From assembly GCF_000724545.1 (NCBI RefSeq), contig NZ_JHBV01000016.1, forward strand, positions 310,001 to 374,000: a stretch of 64,000 nucleotides of DNA, in the 5' to 3' direction. Position numbers and translations under genes: made by a program. This DNA comes from Aureispira sp. CCB-QB1. Its GTDB lineage: Bacteria > Bacteroidota > Bacteroidia > Chitinophagales > Saprospiraceae. Below, one piece after another: positions 3 to 27,492 of this stretch. The notes beneath the pieces were generated by a model, which saw nothing but the letters and a program-made list of their open reading frames with translations, had not been told where the DNA came from and ran no database searches. The first letter of the stretch is position 1. The number at the start of each line of letters is the position of its first letter.

Positions 3-491
3 GATTCTAGCCAAAGAATAACAGCACTTCAACAAATAAAGCGTCAATTAGTTCCTCTACATGAATTGAGAAAAAATCTAGTACACAATCAACAATCTCA
101 ACAAAATGCTCTTCTTCAGTTGAGTCACCTTCAACATCAAATAAAGCAAAATGAATATGCATTTATTCACTTCTTAGCGCATCAAACAAAATACGTAAGA
201 ATTTGTGGTGGTTCCCCTTATTCTATCTTAGTCACTAGTCCTAAACCTTGTATACGACTAGGTGAAACCTACAAGGCAGCAATAACCCTAAAAACGTTCC
301 ATTCTCCTCAATTACTAGCTGCTCAAATTAATCAAGATAACCTTTCAATTACAAATAACTCCTGTATCTACCAAACTAAAGCTGCCAAAGTAGGAGAAGC
401 AGCTTATCATGTTACTCTAACCTTTACCCATCCTAATTCAACCCAAACCATTACCCAAACACAAGCCTTTTATTTTGAAACAACTCCCTAA
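3..491 (+). CDS. GldM D1-D2-like protein, 3' part only (5' end outside window)
   Basis: The reading frame is open from base 3 to the TAA at 489-491, so the gene begins before the window. About 162 residues are visible. A helical stretch is followed by a beta-rich domain carrying VRLGETY-like (IRLGETYKA) and NPNSTQ-type segments that align with the D2 domain of the GldM at 25855-27492. It ends with FYFETTP, which matches the D2 end of that protein (FSYEVG). It therefore stops at the D2/D3 boundary. The N-terminus is not visible; by analogy with the next three genes it is probably a lipoprotein. The next gene starts 9 bp downstream on the same strand, so this is the first visible member of a tandem paralogue array. 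Function is inferred from homology inside the window only. Confidence 0.75.
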   Translation, partial: DSSQRITALQQIKRQLVPLHELRKNLVHNQQSQQNALLQLSHLQHQIKQNEYAFIHFLAHQTKYVRICGGSPYSILVTSPKPCIRLGETYKAAITLKTFHSPQLLAAQINQDNLSITNNSCIYQTKAAKVGEAAYHVTLTFTHPNSTQTITQTQAFYFETTP

Positions 492-500
492 TTCACAACA

Positions 501-1556
501 ATGAAATCTTTCTGTTTACAATACTTGATAATTATTATTTGTTGCTTGAGTAGTTGTCAAAACAACAATTCAGACGCCTTTGTTCTCCATTACCACCAAC
601 TTAATCAAAGCTTGCATTATAGTAACCAACTACTTAGCTATGAGACGACTCATTCTTTGATAAATATGGAAGAAATTGCCCACGTAGCAACGCAATACAT
701 ACCGTTCGTTGAAAAAGTAAAATCAGCTCATCGACAAAAAGAAACATTGGATCAGTTCATTCGTTCCATTAAAGCGAAATTAATATCCGAAACAGGTGGT
801 GTTTATAATAAAGAAGAAGCGCTGGCAATTCAAGAAGATTCTTCTTGGGAAGGAATCCCAAAAGGAGCAAAAACGACTCGTTCTATTGAGAAAATATTAC
901 TTATGGAAAAGTATGATGATAAGATGAACTTACCTCTTGCAGAATTATTAGATCAAAAAATACAAGCATTTGTCTTATACAACACTAATTGGCTAGATTC
1001 TCTCTTACAAAATTCAACGTTCAACACTCCTACATTTGAAAAGGAGACAAGGAATTGTTTGCGACAATTTAAAAATAATATAGCTCTCAAAACTTCTCTA
1101 ATTTATTCCAATCAGAAAAATTCATCAAAAGTTTGGGCAGAAGTAAATTTTCAAAACAAACCGTTGATTGCTATCTTAAACGATCTAATAAGCATACAAA
1201 ATACGATTGAAATAGCGCAATACACCATCATAAACCTCTTTACGAATTATCTTTATTCTATAAACAATGATTCTTACAATCAAGTCGAAATAATATCTCA
1301 TAGCACGACTCCTCATGTACAAGTTGGAAAAGATTATGAAGCAACCATCTCCCTAGCAACTTATTCAGCTAACGCTACTTTTGATGTTGTTATAAAAGGA
1401 GATACCATTGCTGCTATTAATGGCAAAGCAACTTGCCGTATACGCCCTCAAAAAACTGGTAAACAAGAACATGCAGCAACTATTCTTATTACCAATCCTA
1501 TAACAGGCGAACGTACAAGCATTAACAAAAAACTTTCTTTTGAAGTCATCCCTTAA
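501..1556 (+). CDS. Lipoprotein with GldM D1-D2 periplasmic domains
   Basis: 351 residues. A type II signal peptide ends in LSSC (Cys19), so the product is a lipid-anchored periplasmic or outer-membrane protein. Residues 55-250 match GldM D1: VEKxKxA, then ExGGxYxxEEA (96-107), then a helical segment. Residues 260-350 match D2: a (V/L)G-x-Y-E-A-x-I-x-L-x-(T/A)YS segment, an NPxTGE turn, and an end in FEVIP where GldM ends D2 with FSYEVG. The GldM transmembrane helix is replaced by the lipobox, and D3-D4 are absent. It probably belongs to the operon at 3-3626 (gaps of 8-10 bp). Known: GldM D1-D4 spans the periplasm and links the GldL motor to the GldK/N ring. Inferred: this protein may pair with GldM or act as an alternative shaft segment. 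Confidence 0.8.
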   Translation: MKSFCLQYLIIIICCLSSCQNNNSDAFVLHYHQLNQSLHYSNQLLSYETTHSLINMEEIAHVATQYIPFVEKVKSAHRQKETLDQFIRSIKAKLISETGGVYNKEEALAIQEDSSWEGIPKGAKTTRSIEKILLMEKYDDKMNLPLAELLDQKIQAFVLYNTNWLDSLLQNSTFNTPTFEKETRNCLRQFKNNIALKTSLIYSNQKNSSKVWAEVNFQNKPLIAILNDLISIQNTIEIAQYTIINLFTNYLYSINNDSYNQVEIISHSTTPHVQVGKDYEATISLATYSANATFDVVIKGDTIAAINGKATCRIRPQKTGKQEHAATILITNPITGERTSINKKLSFEVIP

Positions 1557-1566
1557 TTCCATTTCT

Positions 1567-2586
1567 ATGAAAAGCACCTTGATTTATATTCTTATAACTC
1601 TTGCCTGTTGTACAATGAGTTGCCAAACAAGTTCCTCCGATACAATGATTCTACAAACGTTGCTTCAAAACAAGCATCGGCAAAAAAATACGCTAATAAT
1701 ACAAGACAATACCTCCTCCATGTTAAAATCATTGCAAGAAATCACTGAATATAAAACACAATGTCGCCCTTTGTATTCAAAATGTTATGAAATTCGCCAA
1801 TTAGCAGACAGTCTTTCAGAATACATCGACCATCTAAAAATAGACCTCATTAATTCTTCTGGAGGTTATTCCAACTCAGACGCCCCCTTACCTATGATGT
1901 TAACTAAAATTCCTAAAAATGCCCAAGCAACAGAAATTGTTCAGCAAATGCTGCTCACCGATAAGCAGCAAGTTGCTCCAACTCAAATCATAACTCGTAA
2001 GATTCAATTCTTCTATCAGTTCTGTATAAACTTGCTCAACGACTCTTGGGAAAATGGAGGTATTAAAGGGACCATTTTTGCAGACATTACCAAAAAAGAG
2101 GCTTCTATCCAATCCATAAAAAAAGTATTAAATAGTCCATTTCTTTATAAAGTTAGAACAATCCCCGATCAATTAGATCAACAACTTCAAGGCAAATCAT
2201 TGGCAGTAGCTTTATCACTGCTAAGTCTCATTCAAAACGACATTTATCTTCAAGCACATTATATTACAAACTTCTTTTCTGCTCAAATATCATATATGCA
2301 TCACTACACCTTCTTGCCTGGCTGTATCTCAGCAGCTAAACAAAGTGTCCGTTTGGGCGAAACCTATCATGCTAAGATTTTGTGTGGAATACCTACCAAT
2401 GTTGATATAAAATCTGCCCGTATAAATGGAAAACATACAACTATTGATAATAACAAAGTACTCTATTCTACCCCTGTTACTCATGTTGGAGGGCATAGTT
2501 ATCAAGTTAATTTGACGTTCTCAAATCCTTACACCAATACGATTGATAGTCTGGAAAAGAGCTTTTATTTTAATGCCAATCACTAA
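1567..2586 (+). CDS. Lipoprotein with GldM D1-D2 periplasmic domains (paralogue)
   Basis: 339 residues from the ATG at 1567, chosen over an upstream GTG- or TTG-type start because it gives a clean lipoprotein signal peptide with MSC (Cys19) and starts 10 bp after the previous stop. This copy keeps the strongest D1 signature: NGGIKGTIFAD (about residues 161-171) is identical to an 11-residue stretch of the GldM at 25855-27492 (175-185), and both continue with a lysine-rich helix. D2 carries VRLGETYHA and NPYTN, and the protein ends in FYFNANH at the D2 boundary. No transmembrane helix and no D3-D4. It lies in the same tandem array and is probably co-transcribed. The retained D1 motif makes homology to GldM secure; the molecular role is inferred. 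Confidence 0.82.
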   Translation: MKSTLIYILITLACCTMSCQTSSSDTMILQTLLQNKHRQKNTLIIQDNTSSMLKSLQEITEYKTQCRPLYSKCYEIRQLADSLSEYIDHLKIDLINSSGGYSNSDAPLPMMLTKIPKNAQATEIVQQMLLTDKQQVAPTQIITRKIQFFYQFCINLLNDSWENGGIKGTIFADITKKEASIQSIKKVLNSPFLYKVRTIPDQLDQQLQGKSLAVALSLLSLIQNDIYLQAHYITNFFSAQISYMHHYTFLPGCISAAKQSVRLGETYHAKILCGIPTNVDIKSARINGKHTTIDNNKVLYSTPVTHVGGHSYQVNLTFSNPYTNTIDSLEKSFYFNANH

Positions 2587-2594
2587 TATCCATC

Positions 2595-3626
2595 ATGAAA
2601 ACATTATCATTTAGTTTAATAATTATAATAGGCTTGCTCACAACGGGTTGTCAACCCTCTTTTGACAATCACACAATTATCGAATATTTAGATTCTACTC
2701 AGAGCATGGAAGAAAGCAATGCATTGTTAGAGCAATCTAGTCGTCGATTAGTGTGGGACATTGCTGAAATGGCTAGAGAAAATTTGGAATTAAAACCCTT
2801 GGAGGACAAAGCTAAAGCATTTTTAGAAATAGGAAAAACATTGGATACATACATTGAACAACTGAAAGACTCTTTACTTGGTCCAACAAACCATCTATTT
2901 TTAAAAGATAAAGTATCTGTCTCTCAACAAATATCCATGTCTCAACTACAACTTGCTAAAGACAAAGCTATTGTAGAAGCACTATTTTTCAGCAACCTGT
3001 TTAATGGAACATCACAATTACCACAGGCGACCATTTTAGATTCAACCATTCAACATGTTCAGCACTCTTACCTTGACTTACTAGAGTCCTGTTGGGAACG
3101 GGGAGGTCTCCCTAATACTGTGTTCACTCAAGCCCGTCAAAAGGATAGTATGGTTCATTATTTGACACAAGATTTGCATTTTTATGGTGCTCAAGAAGCT
3201 CAGAATTGGGACACATTTTGCTTCAAAAATCAACCTATGGCTGCTGCTCTTTTAACATTAACTACTATTCAAAATAGTATTAAAATTTTTGAATATACAA
3301 TAGTCCGTTTTTTAAAACAACAGACGACTTATGGGGCTCTTGTCTACGATAAGTTTGAGCTTGTTGCTCAAAGCACCTCTCCTAATCCTCGCTTAGGAGA
3401 GCACTATGAAGCTCAGATTAGTCTGGTCACCTATGCTTCTAAAGCGTCTATGCAAGTCGTTATTGACAATGATACAATTCCCGCTATTGATGGAAGCGTC
3501 TATTATAACATCCCAACCTCTAAAGTAGGTTGGCATCGGTATTCTGTTCATTTTATTTTGACCAATCCATTAACTAATGAAAAAGAAACTTGGAACCGAA
3601 ACTTTGCTTTTGAAGTCATCCCTTAA
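2595..3626 (+). CDS. Lipoprotein with GldM D1-D2 periplasmic domains (paralogue)
   Basis: 343 residues. The signal peptide ends in TTGC (Cys19), the same lipid-anchor position as in its two upstream neighbours. D1 shows CWERGGLPNTVF, a diverged version of the GldM WDNGGIKGTIF motif, and the QPMAAALLTLTTIQN helix that corresponds to GldM HMPVAAIYPMLRKFQN. D2 contains RLGEHYEAQISL, a TNPLTNE turn, and ends FEVIP. It is the last gene of the array: 168 bp follow before hemC and contain an independent promoter. Sequence divergence among the copies is high while the domain boundaries are constant, which argues for functional divergence after old duplications rather than recent amplification. Confidence 0.8.
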   Translation: MKTLSFSLIIIIGLLTTGCQPSFDNHTIIEYLDSTQSMEESNALLEQSSRRLVWDIAEMARENLELKPLEDKAKAFLEIGKTLDTYIEQLKDSLLGPTNHLFLKDKVSVSQQISMSQLQLAKDKAIVEALFFSNLFNGTSQLPQATILDSTIQHVQHSYLDLLESCWERGGLPNTVFTQARQKDSMVHYLTQDLHFYGAQEAQNWDTFCFKNQPMAAALLTLTTIQNSIKIFEYTIVRFLKQQTTYGALVYDKFELVAQSTSPNPRLGEHYEAQISLVTYASKASMQVVIDNDTIPAIDGSVYYNIPTSKVGWHRYSVHFILTNPLTNEKETWNRNFAFEVIP

Positions 3627-3794: not shown

Positions 3795-4700
3795 ATGAAT
3801 AAACTAATCATAGGAACTAGAGGGAGCAAACTCGCTCTTTGGCAAGCATACTATACTCAAGACCGTTTAAAAGAAATTGGCGTTGAATCAGAGTTGAAAA
3901 TTATTAAAACCAAAGGAGATAAAATTCAACACCTGAGCTTTGATAAAATTGAAGGCAAGGGCTTTTTCACAAAGGAGATTGAAGATGAACTGTTAGCAGG
4001 AACAATTGATTTGGCAGTACATTCTATGAAAGATATGCCTACAACACAACCAGAAGGACTTTCTTTGGCGGCAATCTCTTACAGAGAAGACCCCGCAGAC
4101 TGTTTGGTCATTCGCAAAGACGCAGCTACACAAGGTAAAATACTTCAATTGCCAGACAATCCCATAGTTGGTACTTCTTCTGCCCGACGCAAAGCGTTGA
4201 TCAAATCCATTCGCCCCGATGTTGTACTCAACGATATTCGAGGCAATGTTCCTACCCGCTTACAAAAACTAAAAGAAGGTCAATTTGACGCTATTCTATT
4301 AGCAATGGCTGGCATCAAACGTTTGCAGCTGGATATGAGTGCCTTTGAAACCATTCGCTTAAACCCTAAAGAATTTGTCCCAGCTCCAGCACAAGGGGTC
4401 TTAACATGGCAAACGAAAACAGACAACATGGAGGTACGTAGAATTTTGCGTAAAATTCATCGTTCTGACGTGTTGCAATGTACCAATGTAGAACGCAAAG
4501 TTTTAAAATTATTAGATGGAGGTTGCCACTTACCACTGGGCGTATATTGTGAAACAGATGATATGGGCTACTATCATGTTTCTGCGATTCTTTCTGGAGG
4601 TTTGGATCAAGAACTAAATGTTGTCAATCTTTCTTCTAGTACAACTAATAATTTGGCGGAAACTATTTTTGAGCAATTGAAGCAAGGAGTAAACTTATAA
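3795..4700 (+). CDS. hemC: Porphobilinogen deaminase (hydroxymethylbilane synthase)
   Basis: 301 residues, usual length. It condenses four porphobilinogen molecules into hydroxymethylbilane in cytoplasmic tetrapyrrole synthesis. Visible: the N-terminal IGTRGSKLALWQ, HSMKDMP with the catalytic Asp80, GTSSARRKA, DIRGNVPTRL, and DGGCHLPLG, whose Cys244 carries the dipyrromethane cofactor. It is the first gene of a tight operon: its TAA (4698-4700) overlaps the ATG of hemD by one base. The upstream promoter at 3690-3718 probably serves the whole hemC-hemD-dehydratase-rsmG unit. Nothing unusual is visible. Confidence 0.97.
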   Translation: MNKLIIGTRGSKLALWQAYYTQDRLKEIGVESELKIIKTKGDKIQHLSFDKIEGKGFFTKEIEDELLAGTIDLAVHSMKDMPTTQPEGLSLAAISYREDPADCLVIRKDAATQGKILQLPDNPIVGTSSARRKALIKSIRPDVVLNDIRGNVPTRLQKLKEGQFDAILLAMAGIKRLQLDMSAFETIRLNPKEFVPAPAQGVLTWQTKTDNMEVRRILRKIHRSDVLQCTNVERKVLKLLDGGCHLPLGVYCETDDMGYYHVSAILSGGLDQELNVVNLSSSTTNNLAETIFEQLKQGVNL

Positions 4701-21569: not shown

Positions 21570-22301
21570 CTATTTAATCTGAAATGCCAAGCCATTGATT
21601 TTTCTCCCAATAATATCTCCAGGGCAACGTACTTTTATATCTGCAAACGCGTATTGATCTCCTGGTTTGGCTTTTTTGATTACATCTGCAATAGTTCCCG
21701 TAAAACGTCCGCCAATCCCTTTATATTCCAGCACATCACAACTTTTACAAGCGTAATACAACGTATAGGATTGTATGGCACATCTTAGGTCCATATCAAA
21801 ATTATTCAACCTTGCTACCAAACCTGGTTGAGCTTTAAATTCGCCCGACCCAATTAAGCCATTCATTTTATTTGCTAAAACAACAACAGGATCAGGGATT
21901 CGTTTTACTCTGAAATTAGCGGTTTGAGACTGACCAGTACTTTTATTAGTAACGGTTATGGTTGCTTGCCCAGGCTTCTGACAAGTTACGGTATAATGCC
22001 CGTTTCCTTGTTGGGTAATTATCGCTCCTTCTGATTTGATAGATAAGTTATTATGATCCAATCCTGATGCAGCTACCGTAATAGGGTTTTCAACACCGAT
22101 ATAAAATACATTCATCTTGTCTGCTGCTACCGCTAATGTTCCCATTCCTGAATTAGGGTCTTGCACACTAGTTTCCCCTATAAAACTATAATCATTACTA
22201 GGCGGAAAGACGCACAATAGCCCCTCCATAAAAACACTTAAATTACTAGCAAGCAAAATCATAAAAAAAGCTGTAACCCCTATTGATTTGATTGTGTTCA
22301 T
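21570..22301 (-). CDS. Secreted GldM D3-D4-only protein
   Basis: 243 residues from the ATG at 22301 (a TTG six bases upstream is less likely). An N-terminal hydrophobic segment (about 5-30) acts as signal peptide or membrane anchor. From about residue 55 it matches GldM D3: VAADKMNVFYIGVENPITVAASG. From about 140 it matches D4: VKRIPDPVVVLANKMNGLIGSGEFKAQPG (in two overlapping halves), then SYTLYY, DIKVRCPGD and GRKINGLAFQIK. D1, D2 and the motor-contacting transmembrane helix are absent. It follows the D4-only gene by 12 bp and is probably in one operon with gldM2. Known: D4 of GldM is the end that reaches the GldK/N ring. Inferred: a ring adaptor or partner of the D1-D2 lipoproteins at 3-3626. 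Confidence 0.85.
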   Translation of the reverse strand: MNTIKSIGVTAFFMILLASNLSVFMEGLLCVFPPSNDYSFIGETSVQDPNSGMGTLAVAADKMNVFYIGVENPITVAASGLDHNNLSIKSEGAIITQQGNGHYTVTCQKPGQATITVTNKSTGQSQTANFRVKRIPDPVVVLANKMNGLIGSGEFKAQPGLVARLNNFDMDLRCAIQSYTLYYACKSCDVLEYKGIGGRFTGTIADVIKKAKPGDQYAFADIKVRCPGDIIGRKINGLAFQIK

Positions 22302-22313
22302 AAGCAAATCATT

Positions 22314-22709
22314 TTATCGTATTTTGAAATATAGGCTATTGGCAGGACGCCCAACCGTATCGCCTGGGCATTTTACTTTTACATCGGTAAAGGTATATTG
22401 GTCACCCGAAGCAGCTTGTTTGATAATTTTGTTCACCATCCCTTTGAATTTTCCTCCTTTCGCTTTTAGAACAATGGGATCTTTTCTTTTTGCTGTATAA
22501 TACAAAGTATAAGAATCAATAAGGCATTTGGCATCAAAATCAAAGTTATCTAGCCAAGCAATTAAACCAAGTTGTGCCTTAAATTCAGCCGCAGTAATAT
22601 TTCCAGTTTTATTAAAATTTGCAGTAGCAGGTACAGTACTCGTGCTAGACATCAATACAGTGCTCAATACCACTAAAGGTAAAAGCATCCTTCTTTTTGT
22701 GAATATCAT
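22314..22709 (-). CDS. Secreted GldM D4-only protein
   Basis: 131 residues. Signal peptide in the first about 30 residues (basic start, LLPLVVLSTVL, cleavage near PATA). The mature part is a single GldM D4 domain: EFKAQLGLIAWLDNFDFDAKC, SYTLYYTAKRKDP, FTDVKVKCPGDTVGR and a FKIR end identical to the end of GldM. The two Cys conserved in D4 of all four paralogues are present and may form a disulfide. The gene lies between gldM2 and the D3-D4 gene on the same strand. The smallest GldM module seen here; a competitor, cap or adaptor at the GldK/N ring is a possible role. Confidence 0.85.
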   Translation of the reverse strand: MIFTKRRMLLPLVVLSTVLMSSTSTVPATANFNKTGNITAAEFKAQLGLIAWLDNFDFDAKCLIDSYTLYYTAKRKDPIVLKAKGGKFKGMVNKIIKQAASGDQYTFTDVKVKCPGDTVGRPANSLYFKIR

Positions 22710-22830: not shown

Positions 22831-24444
22831 TTATCGAATTGTAAACGACAAACCATTGACACGGCGCCCCACAGTATCTCCAGGACATTTTGCTTTTACT
22901 TCTGTAAACATATAGGTATCACCAGGCTTTGCTTGGCGCACTACTTGAAGCACTTGTCCTGAAAATCTAGTTCCAGAACCTATTATTTCAACTGGATCTT
23001 GACGCTTTCTAGTATAGTACAATTTGTAACTTTGAATAGTACACTTAGCATTAAAATCAAAGTTTTCTAAATTAGGTATCAATCCTAATTGAGCTTTAAA
23101 CGTTCCAGATTTAATGGGACCATCTACCTTGCCAGCACATTTAACCACAGGATCAGGAATTCGTTTTACTCTAAACTCAAAATCTGTTTTTGCCAAACCG
23201 CCTCCAGAAAGTGTGATTTTAGCCATTCCAGTTCTTTTAGCCGTCACTATACGTTTTGCACCTGAGCCCTTCATTGTAACCCCAGTACTCGTTACTTTTA
23301 GCTGAGAAGATGGCACCCCTGCTGCCGTAACAGTAATTGGATTTTCCACTCCTACATAAAACACATTCATTTGATCTGCCGAAACTGTTGCCGAACGCAT
23401 CCCAACCTCATACTCAAATGTACTCGTTCCTGTTTTCACTTCACCTGTCAAAGGATTTCTAACTTTACAACCCAAAGTAAGTTTTTTACTACCTGCAGAA
23501 GTGGTGTTTTGAGTTAGAATAGCCTTTCCATCTGCTCCAATTTTCAACGGAGAACCATTAACGGTAAGTTGTATATTGGCAGGATCCAATTGAGAACTAT
23601 AAGATCCCAATGAAATTTCTGCTTTAAAAGGTTCTCCTTTTATGACATAAGATTTTTCGGCATTGATAACAGGAAAAAACTGATCAATTACGATCGTTTT
23701 GCCTCCTGCAATCGCTGTCAAATCATTAACCATGGTAGCTTCTGCACTTCGGGCATTAGATTGAATTTGGCTCAACAAAGGCAACACAGCAGCCAAAGGC
23801 ATTTGTCTAAATTTAAAATCTGCCCAACTTTTCTTATCACTATGTGTCCACTCATCGTCAATATTAAGCGTTATGTTTTTTTCTAAGCCTTTAATTTTCA
23901 GCTCTATTTCTTCTTCTTTGAGATCAAATGCTTTTCCATGCTCTCGCAATAAATTGGTATATAACTCCAACAAATGCTGTTTGGATGTTATAATCTTTTG
24001 CTCCAACTCATTGCCTTTGCCACCGTCTACTAAAATTCGAGTGGTGATGTCTTTATTTTTTTTGCCTTTAGGAACCATTTCCCCATGGCTCTCTATAAAG
24101 TCTCCATCATCTTTTTGACCATTTATATTTCCACCTTCATCAATCAATTGATCTCTGATTTCTTCAATATAGGTAATCAAAGCTTTGGTAGTGTTTCGAA
24201 TGTCTTTTACAGCAGGTACAATTGGTTTAAAGTTCTGCTTTGATTCATCTGCTAACAATTCCTCTAAACCCTTTGCGGTCGCATCCAATTGCTTATTAAC
24301 AATATTCATAGAGTCCTGATTTCCTTTATCTAAGGCAAAAAAAGCATTAATAATCTCCGCAGAAACATTTAAAGCTAACATAGCCGTTAACACTAAGTAC
24401 ATCAAATTAATCATTAACTGTCTCGGTTCTTTAGGTATTGACAT
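22831..24444 (-). CDS. Second full-length GldM/PorM homologue
   Basis: 537 residues. The first 41 residues, containing the single transmembrane helix, are identical to the GldM at 25855-27492 except residue 37 (Ala for Met). Beyond that the two diverge strongly, most in D1, where the NGGIKGTIFAD motif is lost. D2 ends near FEYEVG, D3 begins with VSADQMNVFYVGVENPITV, and D4 ends in GRRVNGLSFTIR. GldM dimers bundle with GldL in the inner membrane and carry torque through the periplasm. Identity limited to the motor-contact helix implies both share GldL while presenting different shafts. Transcribed from its own promoter at 24723-24750 and followed by the D4 and D3-D4 genes. Confidence 0.93.
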   Translation of the reverse strand: MSIPKEPRQLMINLMYLVLTAMLALNVSAEIINAFFALDKGNQDSMNIVNKQLDATAKGLEELLADESKQNFKPIVPAVKDIRNTTKALITYIEEIRDQLIDEGGNINGQKDDGDFIESHGEMVPKGKKNKDITTRILVDGGKGNELEQKIITSKQHLLELYTNLLREHGKAFDLKEEEIELKIKGLEKNITLNIDDEWTHSDKKSWADFKFRQMPLAAVLPLLSQIQSNARSAEATMVNDLTAIAGGKTIVIDQFFPVINAEKSYVIKGEPFKAEISLGSYSSQLDPANIQLTVNGSPLKIGADGKAILTQNTTSAGSKKLTLGCKVRNPLTGEVKTGTSTFEYEVGMRSATVSADQMNVFYVGVENPITVTAAGVPSSQLKVTSTGVTMKGSGAKRIVTAKRTGMAKITLSGGGLAKTDFEFRVKRIPDPVVKCAGKVDGPIKSGTFKAQLGLIPNLENFDFNAKCTIQSYKLYYTRKRQDPVEIIGSGTRFSGQVLQVVRQAKPGDTYMFTEVKAKCPGDTVGRRVNGLSFTIR

Positions 24445-25854: not shown

Positions 25855-27492
25855 TTATCTAATCTTGAAAGTCAAACCGTTTACACGACGACCAGCACTA
25901 TCACCTGGACATCTAGCTTTTACGTCTGTAAATGCATATTGATCACCTGGTTTTGCTTGTCTAACAGCAGAAGCAATTTGACCAGAGAAACGACCTCCTT
26001 TTCCTTTTAGTTCTACTGCATCTTGACGTTTACGTGTATAGTACATAGTATATGATTGTACTTGACATCTCGCATCAAAGTCAAAGTTTTCTAACCATGC
26101 AGCCAAACCTGGTTGAGCTTTGAACTCACCAGATCCCATTAAACCATCCACTTTCTTACCTAACTTTACGATAGGATCTGGAATACGTTTAACACGGAAC
26201 TTAAATGGAAACTTCTTACCGTTTTTAGTATCAGTTACAGTAATTGTTGCTTCACCTGGTTTTTTAGCTGTTACGATATAGCTAGTTTTTCCTTTAGATT
26301 TCAAAGTACCACCAGTCATAGAAACTTTCATAGCTGAAGTTGTGATACCAGCAGCAGCAACTGTTACTGGGTTGTCAACACCAACATAGAATACATTCAT
26401 CTTGTCAGCAGCAACGTTCACAGAAGGTTGACCTACTTCGTAAGAGAATTCTTTTTTGAATGTTTCTACCTCACCTGTTTGTGGATTTTTTACAGAGATA
26501 GTAGCTGTATATTTCTTCTCACCTACACTAGATCCAGAAGCTGTATACTTTGCTTTACCATCTACTACATTTAATCTGCTACCACCAACAGAAACAGAGA
26601 AATCAGCTTGAGAAGAGTACGCTCCCAATGCAATTTCTGATTCGTACTTTTCACCTAATAAGATGTAAGGCTTAGAAGACTGGGAAAATACGTCAAACTT
26701 ATCGTAAGTCAACTCCATTTTACCCATTTGACTAGCCAAGAAGTTAATCACAGCAGCCTCAGAAGTTCTTGCATCGTTTTGGAATTTACGCAACATTGGA
26801 TAAATCGCAGCTACTGGCATGTGCCCAAAAGTAAATTCTTCCCATGATTTACCTTCGTGTTGTTCTGGATTATATTTTTCGTCTGCAACTAAAGTCATTT
26901 CAGACTCCAAACGCTTCAATGTTTCGTCTTTTTTGTTTTTATCAGCAAAGATAGTTCCTTTGATACCACCATTGTCCCAAAGACCACCTACGAAATCAAG
27001 ATAAGCTTGTTTTAGCTTTTTAATTTCAGCAGCAAGAATTTGACCTTGAGGTTCTTTTTTCTCACTACCATAGTCTCCAGATACAAAGATACGTTGAGGA
27101 GTATCTTTATCTTTTTTACCAATAGGTTTTCCTGCCAATTCAGGATGACCTTGTGACTCAGCCTCTTCAGCAGTATAAGCTCCACCAGACTCTTCTACCA
27201 TACGCTCTCTCAAACCAGTAACGAAAGTATTGAATCCAACAGTAATATTTTTAGCCTCTTTTGCTTTTTCTACTAAAGGTTGGTATTGTGTTTTAGTTTT
27301 TGCAGTTTCCGCCATACTCTCAATAACACTGGTTACGGAGGCCTCTACAATTTGATTATTTTTCTTTATACCCTTATCGAGCATAAAAAACGCATTTATG
27401 ATTTCAGCTGATACATTCAACGCTAACATAGCTGTCAAAACCAGATACATCAGGTTAATCATCAGCTGTCTTGGTTCCTTAGGAATTGACAT
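25855..27492 (-). CDS. gldM: T9SS/gliding motor protein GldM (PorM)
   Basis: 545 residues. Cytoplasmic start MSIPKEPRQ with Arg8, one transmembrane helix (about 12-35), then periplasmic D1 (about 40-225, with WDNGGIKGTIFAD), D2 (about 255-353), D3 (from VNVAADKMNVFYVG, about 358-435) and D4 (from RIPDPIVK, about 438-545). GldM dimers insert into the GldL pentamer and transmit proton-driven rotation to the GldK/N ring. Two Cys in D4 (ARCQVQ, ARCPGD) are shared with the other D4 proteins here. Own promoter motif at 27580-27607, own terminator after it. It is the reference for the dispersed GldM modules in this window. Confidence 0.97.
   Translation of the reverse strand: MSIPKEPRQLMINLMYLVLTAMLALNVSAEIINAFFMLDKGIKKNNQIVEASVTSVIESMAETAKTKTQYQPLVEKAKEAKNITVGFNTFVTGLRERMVEESGGAYTAEEAESQGHPELAGKPIGKKDKDTPQRIFVSGDYGSEKKEPQGQILAAEIKKLKQAYLDFVGGLWDNGGIKGTIFADKNKKDETLKRLESEMTLVADEKYNPEQHEGKSWEEFTFGHMPVAAIYPMLRKFQNDARTSEAAVINFLASQMGKMELTYDKFDVFSQSSKPYILLGEKYESEIALGAYSSQADFSVSVGGSRLNVVDGKAKYTASGSSVGEKKYTATISVKNPQTGEVETFKKEFSYEVGQPSVNVAADKMNVFYVGVDNPVTVAAAGITTSAMKVSMTGGTLKSKGKTSYIVTAKKPGEATITVTDTKNGKKFPFKFRVKRIPDPIVKLGKKVDGLMGSGEFKAQPGLAAWLENFDFDARCQVQSYTMYYTRKRQDAVELKGKGGRFSGQIASAVRQAKPGDQYAFTDVKARCPGDSAGRRVNGLTFKIR

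Follow-up and report, generated by a model that had tools for sequence, protein, structure and literature searches.

The DNA considered here, called the window, is a stretch of 64,000 nucleotides from Aureispira sp. CCB-QB1 (G000:C16:310001-374000, G000 being the source genome). Its positions 3-3626 hold three complete open reading frames (ORFs) and one 5'-cut ORF, all on the + strand, whose products are homologous to the first two domains, D1 and D2, of GldM, a protein of the type IX secretion system (T9SS) and of gliding. GldM is regarded as a motor-bound inner-membrane shaft. These genes belong to a head-to-tail array of five on the + strand, named L1 to L5; the window start cuts L2, while L1 lies wholly upstream, on the upstream-reaching stretch L009. 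In all five array proteins the N-terminal transmembrane helix, which contacts GldL in GldM, is replaced by a lipobox, as judged by sequence.

Gene content and domains of the array

The first gene, L1 (L009:11813-13513, outside the window), codes for a protein of 566 amino acids with a lipobox cysteine at residue 22 and all four GldM domains. L2 (L009:13619-14491, with its 3' part at 3..491 of the window, + strand) encodes 290 amino acids, with the lipobox cysteine at residue 17, a clear D2 and an unclear D1. The remaining three, L3 (501..1556, 351 amino acids), L4 (1567..2586, 339 amino acids) and L5 (2595..3626, 343 amino acids), all on the + strand, each produce a predicted D1-D2 lipoprotein with the cysteine at residue 19; L4 also carries the sequence NGGIKGTIFAD. 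The spacers L1-L2, L2-L3, L3-L4 and L4-L5 are of 105, 9, 10 and 8 bases. For L4 the ATG at 1567 was preferred to the TTG at 1540, which would overlap L3 by 17 bases.

Pfam models identified D1 (GldM_1st, PF12081; cut-off 25 bits) in L3-L5 at 34.8-46.4 bits and D2 (GldM_2nd, PF21601; cut-off 24.4 bits) at 29.3-36.3 bits, with 32.5 bits for the window part of L2. Over the whole array, the D1 model scored above its cut-off in L1, L3, L4 and L5, and the D2 model in all five; L2 gave no Pfam D1 match, its only D1 match being to a profile built with L2 itself included. The four window ORFs had no match to the D3 or D4 Pfam models at E up to 1, and the three complete proteins and the 5'-cut one end no more than a few residues from the final D2 strand; D3 and D4 are present only in L1 and absent from L2-L5. 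In the whole genome only six proteins match GldM_1st at E up to 1, all encoded on the same contig: GldM, its paralogue GldM2, L1, L3, L4 and L5. The full-length family model TIGR03517 (cut-off 180 bits), which scored 262.7 for GldM and 236 bits for GldM2, gave values below the cut-off for L1 (146.0), L3 (48.9), L5 (39.4) and L4 (31.1), and no match for L2. These matches, together with the fold comparison given below, rule out that the array genes are chance ORFs.

The sequence NGGIKGTIFAD is found exactly in L4 and in the canonical GldM at 25855-27492. The looser pattern NGGI-x-TIF occurs in six GldM rows (five from Aureispira and one from G098) and in 9 of the 15 distinct Aureispira array or truncated rows; among 55 rows, it was found in no GldM2 and in no other GldM, the GldM of G003 and the other GldM of G098 lacking it. 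The motif and the tree described below place the array nearest to the canonical GldM lineage.

A preliminary description of this DNA had reported three complete and one partial GldM D1-D2 genes in a row, a lipobox with Cys19 for the motor-contacting helix in the complete ones, and NGGIKGTIFAD shared with GldM. The tandem + strand ORFs with D1 and D2 scores above cut-off, the lipobox with its invariant cysteine and the exact motif in L4 all bear this out. Its statement that the genes stop at the D2/D3 boundary holds for L2-L5 in the window and fails for the whole array, since L1 has D1-D4. In the profile and fold comparisons set beforehand for the kinship it claimed, D1 and D2 were matched in Pfam and the best matches in the PDB were GldM/PorM, and the survey of related genomes for lipobox D1-D2 genes found them in several Aureispira genomes, with the lipobox also in G136, G052 and G098.

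N-terminal anchor and predicted fold

Published work, cited in this text by PubMed Central number, describes GldM as having a helix inside the GldL pentamer, a D1 that pairs through helix alpha-1, D2 and D3 that swap strands, and a D4 that meets GldN (PMC5790014, PMC12421860, PMC8986121, PMC9127263); the D4 of PorM binds PorN (PMC12421860), and the GldL-GldM contact depends on the transmembrane helices (PMC8986121). The array proteins have no motor helix, thus the motor cannot drive them directly. Their lipidation is a prediction made with a purpose-made lipobox rule, in which L4 and L5 were scored on the copies of a second strain (G040) and which, on L4, fired first at Cys14, the assigned cysteine being Cys19. 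The rule holds in 13 of the 15 D1-D2 or L1-type Aureispira members with a readable N-terminus (including one 83-residue contig-cut start), against a background of 9/44 ORFs in the window and 11/69 in ten other loci, both sets containing some array genes. An alignment of twelve lipobox-type D1-D2 stretches, of which the others share 21-36% identity with the first, has only four invariant columns: Met1, the cysteine and two glycines.

The export signal of Bacteroidota surface lipoproteins has an acidic consensus. No such signal follows the cysteine in the 13 rule-positive members, all of which have 0-1 acidic residues at positions +2 to +6. Because this signal is missing, the array proteins are probably tethered to the outer membrane and face the periplasm; Bacteroidota are described as making many outer-membrane lipoproteins and as having an export signal for those of the surface (PMC11885536).

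The AlphaFold2 model of L5, from 55 sequences, reached a mean pLDDT (predicted local distance difference test) of 84.2 and a pTM (predicted template modelling score) of 0.65. When it was compared with the PDB by Foldseek, the first seven matches were PorM/GldM chains (7cmg, 7sb2, 6ey4, 7sau, 7saz; best E 2.3e-8), as were 9 of the 12 matches at E up to 0.001. The query TM (template modelling) score to the first seven was 0.42-0.45. A phmmer search of L5 against PDB sequences gave three matches, all PorM/GldM, at E of only 0.34-0.54; the structural link therefore depends on Pfam and on the fold comparison. For L1 (pLDDT 87.6, pTM 0.52), the first seven PDB matches were again PorM/GldM, at a query TM of 0.29-0.33, followed by many immunoglobulin-like proteins. 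In this model residues 1-49 are disordered (pLDDT < 50) and helix alpha-1 starts at residue 51, so that ~28 residues separate it from Cys22, whereas in L5 alpha-1 begins at residue 25, five residues past the cysteine.

When alpha-1, the rest of D1 and D2 were compared separately with GldM in 11 Aureispira lipobox-type proteins, alpha-1 was the least conserved part in all 11, at 4-29% identity, and D2 the best kept in nine. For GldM2, the only control, identity to GldM is 39% over alpha-1 and 29% over the remainder of D1.

Neighbourhood, distribution and origin

The array is flanked on one side by a gene that we take from its sequence to be nitroreductase-like and on the other by one presumably coding for a hydroxymethylbilane synthase-like protein (hemC-like, 3795..4700, + strand), which forms the downstream syntenic border. 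By sequence inspection, with no family search run on them, none of the neighbouring genes points to a function, and no cargo-like or PorP-like gene was seen directly beside the array. Between L1 and L2 lies a hairpin of 17 pairs followed by a T-run (L009:13555-13594), a terminator pattern retained in G040, which may separate transcription of L1 from that of L2-L5. Such patterns are not more frequent than in shuffled sequences (2 found, 1.9 expected), and a promoter scan was also at chance level (14 found, 14.7 expected).

The transmembrane relatives are encoded further into the window on the - strand: canonical GldM (25855..27492, 545 amino acids) and GldM2 (22831..24444, 537 amino acids). Next to GldM2 are a stand-alone D4 protein (22314..22709, - strand, 131 amino acids) and a stand-alone D3-D4 protein (21570..22307, - strand, 245 amino acids) whose N-terminus carries a hydrophobic segment, so that both halves of the shaft exist as separate proteins in this genome. 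On another contig, C1, a protein of 359 amino acids (L010:6913-7992, +) has weak D2- and D4-like similarity, below the Pfam cut-offs.

Nine genomes of the genus were compared, G000 included. Besides the five copies of G000, G040 has three, G004 two (one cut), G003 one D1-D2 gene and G001 one full gene; G006 contains one full gene, two complete D1-D2 genes and a contig-cut one, and G005 and G002 each have one D1-D2 gene elsewhere in the genome. The site between the nitroreductase-like gene and hemC is common to G000, G040, G003 and G001, and G004, split over contigs, is consistent with it. D1-D2 forms are found where L1 was not detected, in G003, G005 and G002 and, outside the genus, in G136; thus they seem independent of L1. 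Other domain arrangements were also seen, namely a protein with two tandem D1 domains after an apparent signal peptide (L067:3777-5207, +, 476 amino acids, G006), and two whose GldM D1 stretch is confined to the C-terminus (L079:2686-3987, +, 433 amino acids, G003, the remainder without Pfam match; L078:220-1485, +, 421 amino acids, G004).

In the family, 120 genomes were surveyed by best matches only and 25, chosen mostly for three or more matches, were searched again; nine regions were checked, eight from these 25 plus G087, and any prevalence is therefore a lower bound. Seven of the 25 (G012, G044, G052, G098, G136, G137 and G138) encode short stand-alone proteins in which a D2 at the C-terminus is the recognisable domain. 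Outside the genus the lipobox rule holds in 4 of 12 proteins (two from G136 and one each from G052 and G098), the other eight having a hydrophobic segment without lipobox. The checked regions also included a D2-D3-D4 protein (G090) and a contig-cut GldM (G087); a candidate of G140, a weak 14-bit match, was dropped. One locus of G098, L075, holds two full GldM genes, four D3-D4-type proteins and one D4-only protein in ~9 kb.

Among 60 genomes of the order, two from another Saprospirales family contain tandem arrays: six whole genes in G165 (L170:2824-8406, - strand), all matching the D2 profile, and four in G178 (L171:2862-6365, + strand), where two types alternate and two match. Like the Aureispira array, these ten tandem genes code for short proteins (279-324 amino acids), eight of them with a C-terminal GldM D2 match at 17-50 bits; unlike it, none matches the D1 profile, and the N-terminus is hydrophobic, without lipobox in the two members tested. 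Other regions of the order gave a D1-only protein (G146) and a contig-cut GldM (G034), and no profile match among the ATG ORFs of G156 and G143. In a phylum sample of 90 genomes with completeness of at least 90%, 6 inside the order and 84 outside, 19 had a match; outside the order the 13 matching genomes showed frames of 511-594 amino acids only, corresponding to full GldM. The truncated form was thus found in 0/84 Bacteroidota genomes outside the order, a result of low sensitivity since 71 of the 84 gave no GldM match either.

A tree was built from 53 D1-D2 stretches, leaving out two near-copies of G040 (L061); for one G006 row (L065:1170-2144) the alignments used the upstream start and the lipobox test the inner one. 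Several rows have long branches and the placement of single rows is unsure. The lipobox pair of G136 groups with the GldM of another genome of its own genus (support 100/91) and then with that of a second genus (100/99), the GldM of G136 itself not being included. A single origin of all 19 truncated or lipobox rows was rejected (approximately unbiased test, AU p 0.009), while with the G136 pair removed a single origin of the remaining 17 (15 from Aureispira and two from G012) was not (AU p 0.41). On this phylogenetic evidence the G136 pair, from another genus, arose separately.

Within Aureispira, five GldM orthologues have 68-83% identity to the window GldM, L1 orthologues 56-59%, and the D1-D2 forms 19-31% between species; L1 is 34, 71, 51 and 61% identical to GldM in D1, D2, D3 and D4, respectively. 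The three array genes shared by G000 and G040 show 5 synonymous and 9 nonsynonymous differences between the two strains (pN/pS, the ratio of nonsynonymous to synonymous change, 0.50), compared with 6 synonymous and 1 nonsynonymous in three neighbour genes; these small numbers suggest weaker constraint on the array genes than on their neighbours. Fourfold sites gave no clear sign of recent gene conversion between L1 and GldM except in D3 of G006, in a comparison whose GldM2 row came from G003 and which did not include the G001 GldM.

Possible roles and comparison with known systems

The array is real, reaches beyond the window and, to judge from its recurrence in other genomes, is more than debris. 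The explanation to which we incline, while judging it somewhat short of likely, is that it supplies motor-uncoupled accessory parts of the T9SS or of gliding, probably tethered to the outer membrane, as lineage-specific, lipid-anchored duplicates of GldM. L1, with D1-D4 and a disordered tether of ~28 residues, would derive from a GldM copy of the Aureispira lineage in which a type II signal took the place of the transmembrane helix; shorter D1-D2 copies would then have arisen or lost D3-D4. Without the helix that binds GldL, the proteins would not be turned directly by the motor and may be static. L1 probably still engages GldN, as its D4 (61%) and D2 (71%) remain close to GldM; the D1-D2 forms would probably pair with themselves or with each other via D2 and serve, next to the core, as periplasmic spacers or adaptors that have diversified. 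The retained D2, plus D4 in L1, point to partners shared with GldM.

Several observations weigh against this explanation. The export-signal rule derives from other Bacteroidota families and may not hold here. The G002 protein has the cysteine with a Glu at -2 and fails the lipobox rule, and one G006 member carries an ordinary signal peptide; G007 has no array member and G001 only the L1 type. The end of the array is ~22 kb away from gldM, the nearest D3-D4 gene is at ~18 kb, and no member lies in the gldKLMN cluster. Among the 12 Foldseek matches of L5, three are to the unrelated Integrator complex, and its query TM score to the listed GldM/PorM chains is only 0.41-0.46, with a root-mean-square deviation of ~10-15 A, indicating that the domains match and their arrangement does not; with the query TM of L1 at only 0.28-0.33, the domain arrangement is not established.

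It is also conceivable, though unlikely, that the lipoproteins are held in the inner membrane and heterodimerise with GldM or GldM2, altering shaft length or torque, as the preliminary description had in part proposed with its mixed dimers. GldM is a dimer with D2 strand swapping, and in two-hybrid assays PorM D1 alone did not pair while a D2-D3 construct oligomerised (PMC5790014), so that pairing with GldM via D2 would be allowed; D2, which is more conserved than the other parts in 9 of the 11 proteins and ~70% identical to GldM in L1, fits this route. Normal pairing via D1 is spoken against by the loss of alpha-1 likeness, which is below the rest of D1 in all 11 proteins (in L4 by two points only). 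If the proteins join the many Bacteroidota outer-membrane lipoproteins (PMC11885536), the orientation of the D1-D2 forms would be antiparallel to that of GldM. The proposal of mixed dimers is thus weakened as regards the D1 route and keeps that through D2; the alternative shafts or periplasmic connectors that the preliminary description also suggested are conceivable.

It seems improbable that the genes are rapidly evolving remnants of an amplification of GldM and have little function or none. Such decay would agree with the pN/pS on the 14 changes in array genes, with the low identity of the D1-D2 forms between species as compared with GldM, and with G040, a strain labelled as the same species in which L2 and the greater part of L3 are missing, a loss that also counts against the accessory parts favoured above; indeed, the 167-base L1-L4 spacer of G040 retains the L3 3' end, which identifies a deletion in that strain. 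Conversely, all five ORFs are open, the lipobox cysteine is invariant in twelve rows, the fold is retained, lipobox forms arose a second time, independently, in another genus, and arrays recur in a second family. Predatory Aureispira carry grappling hooks, and diversifying lipoproteins might receive, retain or display T9SS cargo such as these or adhesins. Fast divergence, tandem duplication and copy-number change would suit such adaptors, and the T9SS takes part in Aureispira predation (PMC12421860), but the acidic export signal is missing and no cargo-like or PorP-like gene was seen to adjoin the array; we hold this to be quite improbable. Least expected of all, and very unlikely, would be an inhibitory role, in which the array proteins act as decoys, competing for a partner with GldM and setting how many motors are active: L1 does have GldM-like D2-D4 without a motor helix, but the D1-D2 forms are without the known GldN-binding domain.

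Returning to motor-uncoupled accessory parts, a wider and doubtful extension is that Saprospirales repeatedly make GldM into motor-less half-shafts in tandem arrays, anchored in the membrane by a lipid or by a new transmembrane segment. These would form an undescribed T9SS/gliding class that diverts or halts torque at selected points, for instance in predatory cells or in filamentous ones that glide. Recurrent shaft halves with other anchors would mean that the shaft is modular and that some of its parts work without the motor; the array offers natural constructs for asking what D1-D2 does alone and through which contacts the GldKN ring receives torque. In agreement with the preliminary description, which knew of no family of this architecture, no lipid-anchored or half-length GldM protein was recognised in the open-licence PubMed Central literature, as far as its available text goes, subscription papers and preprints lying outside that scope.

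Compared with known systems, the array proteins are closest to GldM/PorM (TIGR03517; PF12081, PF21601, PF21602, PF12080), with which they share the order of a D1 helical bundle followed by a D2 beta domain, and in L1 all four domains; they differ in the lipobox that replaces the GldL-contacting helix, in the lack of D3-D4 in L2-L5, in the sub-cut-off TIGR03517 scores and in the position outside gldKLMN. GldM2, the GldM paralogue of this genome, differs from the array in that it retains the transmembrane helix and D1-D4 and lacks the NGGI-TIFAD motif. To our knowledge, GldK/PorK, PorE and PorW/SprE do not share GldM domains. Like the predicted array products, these proteins are lipoproteins that are related to the T9SS and lie on the periplasmic side (PMC12421860, PMC8754138, PMC9127263; for PorE also PMC7192894).

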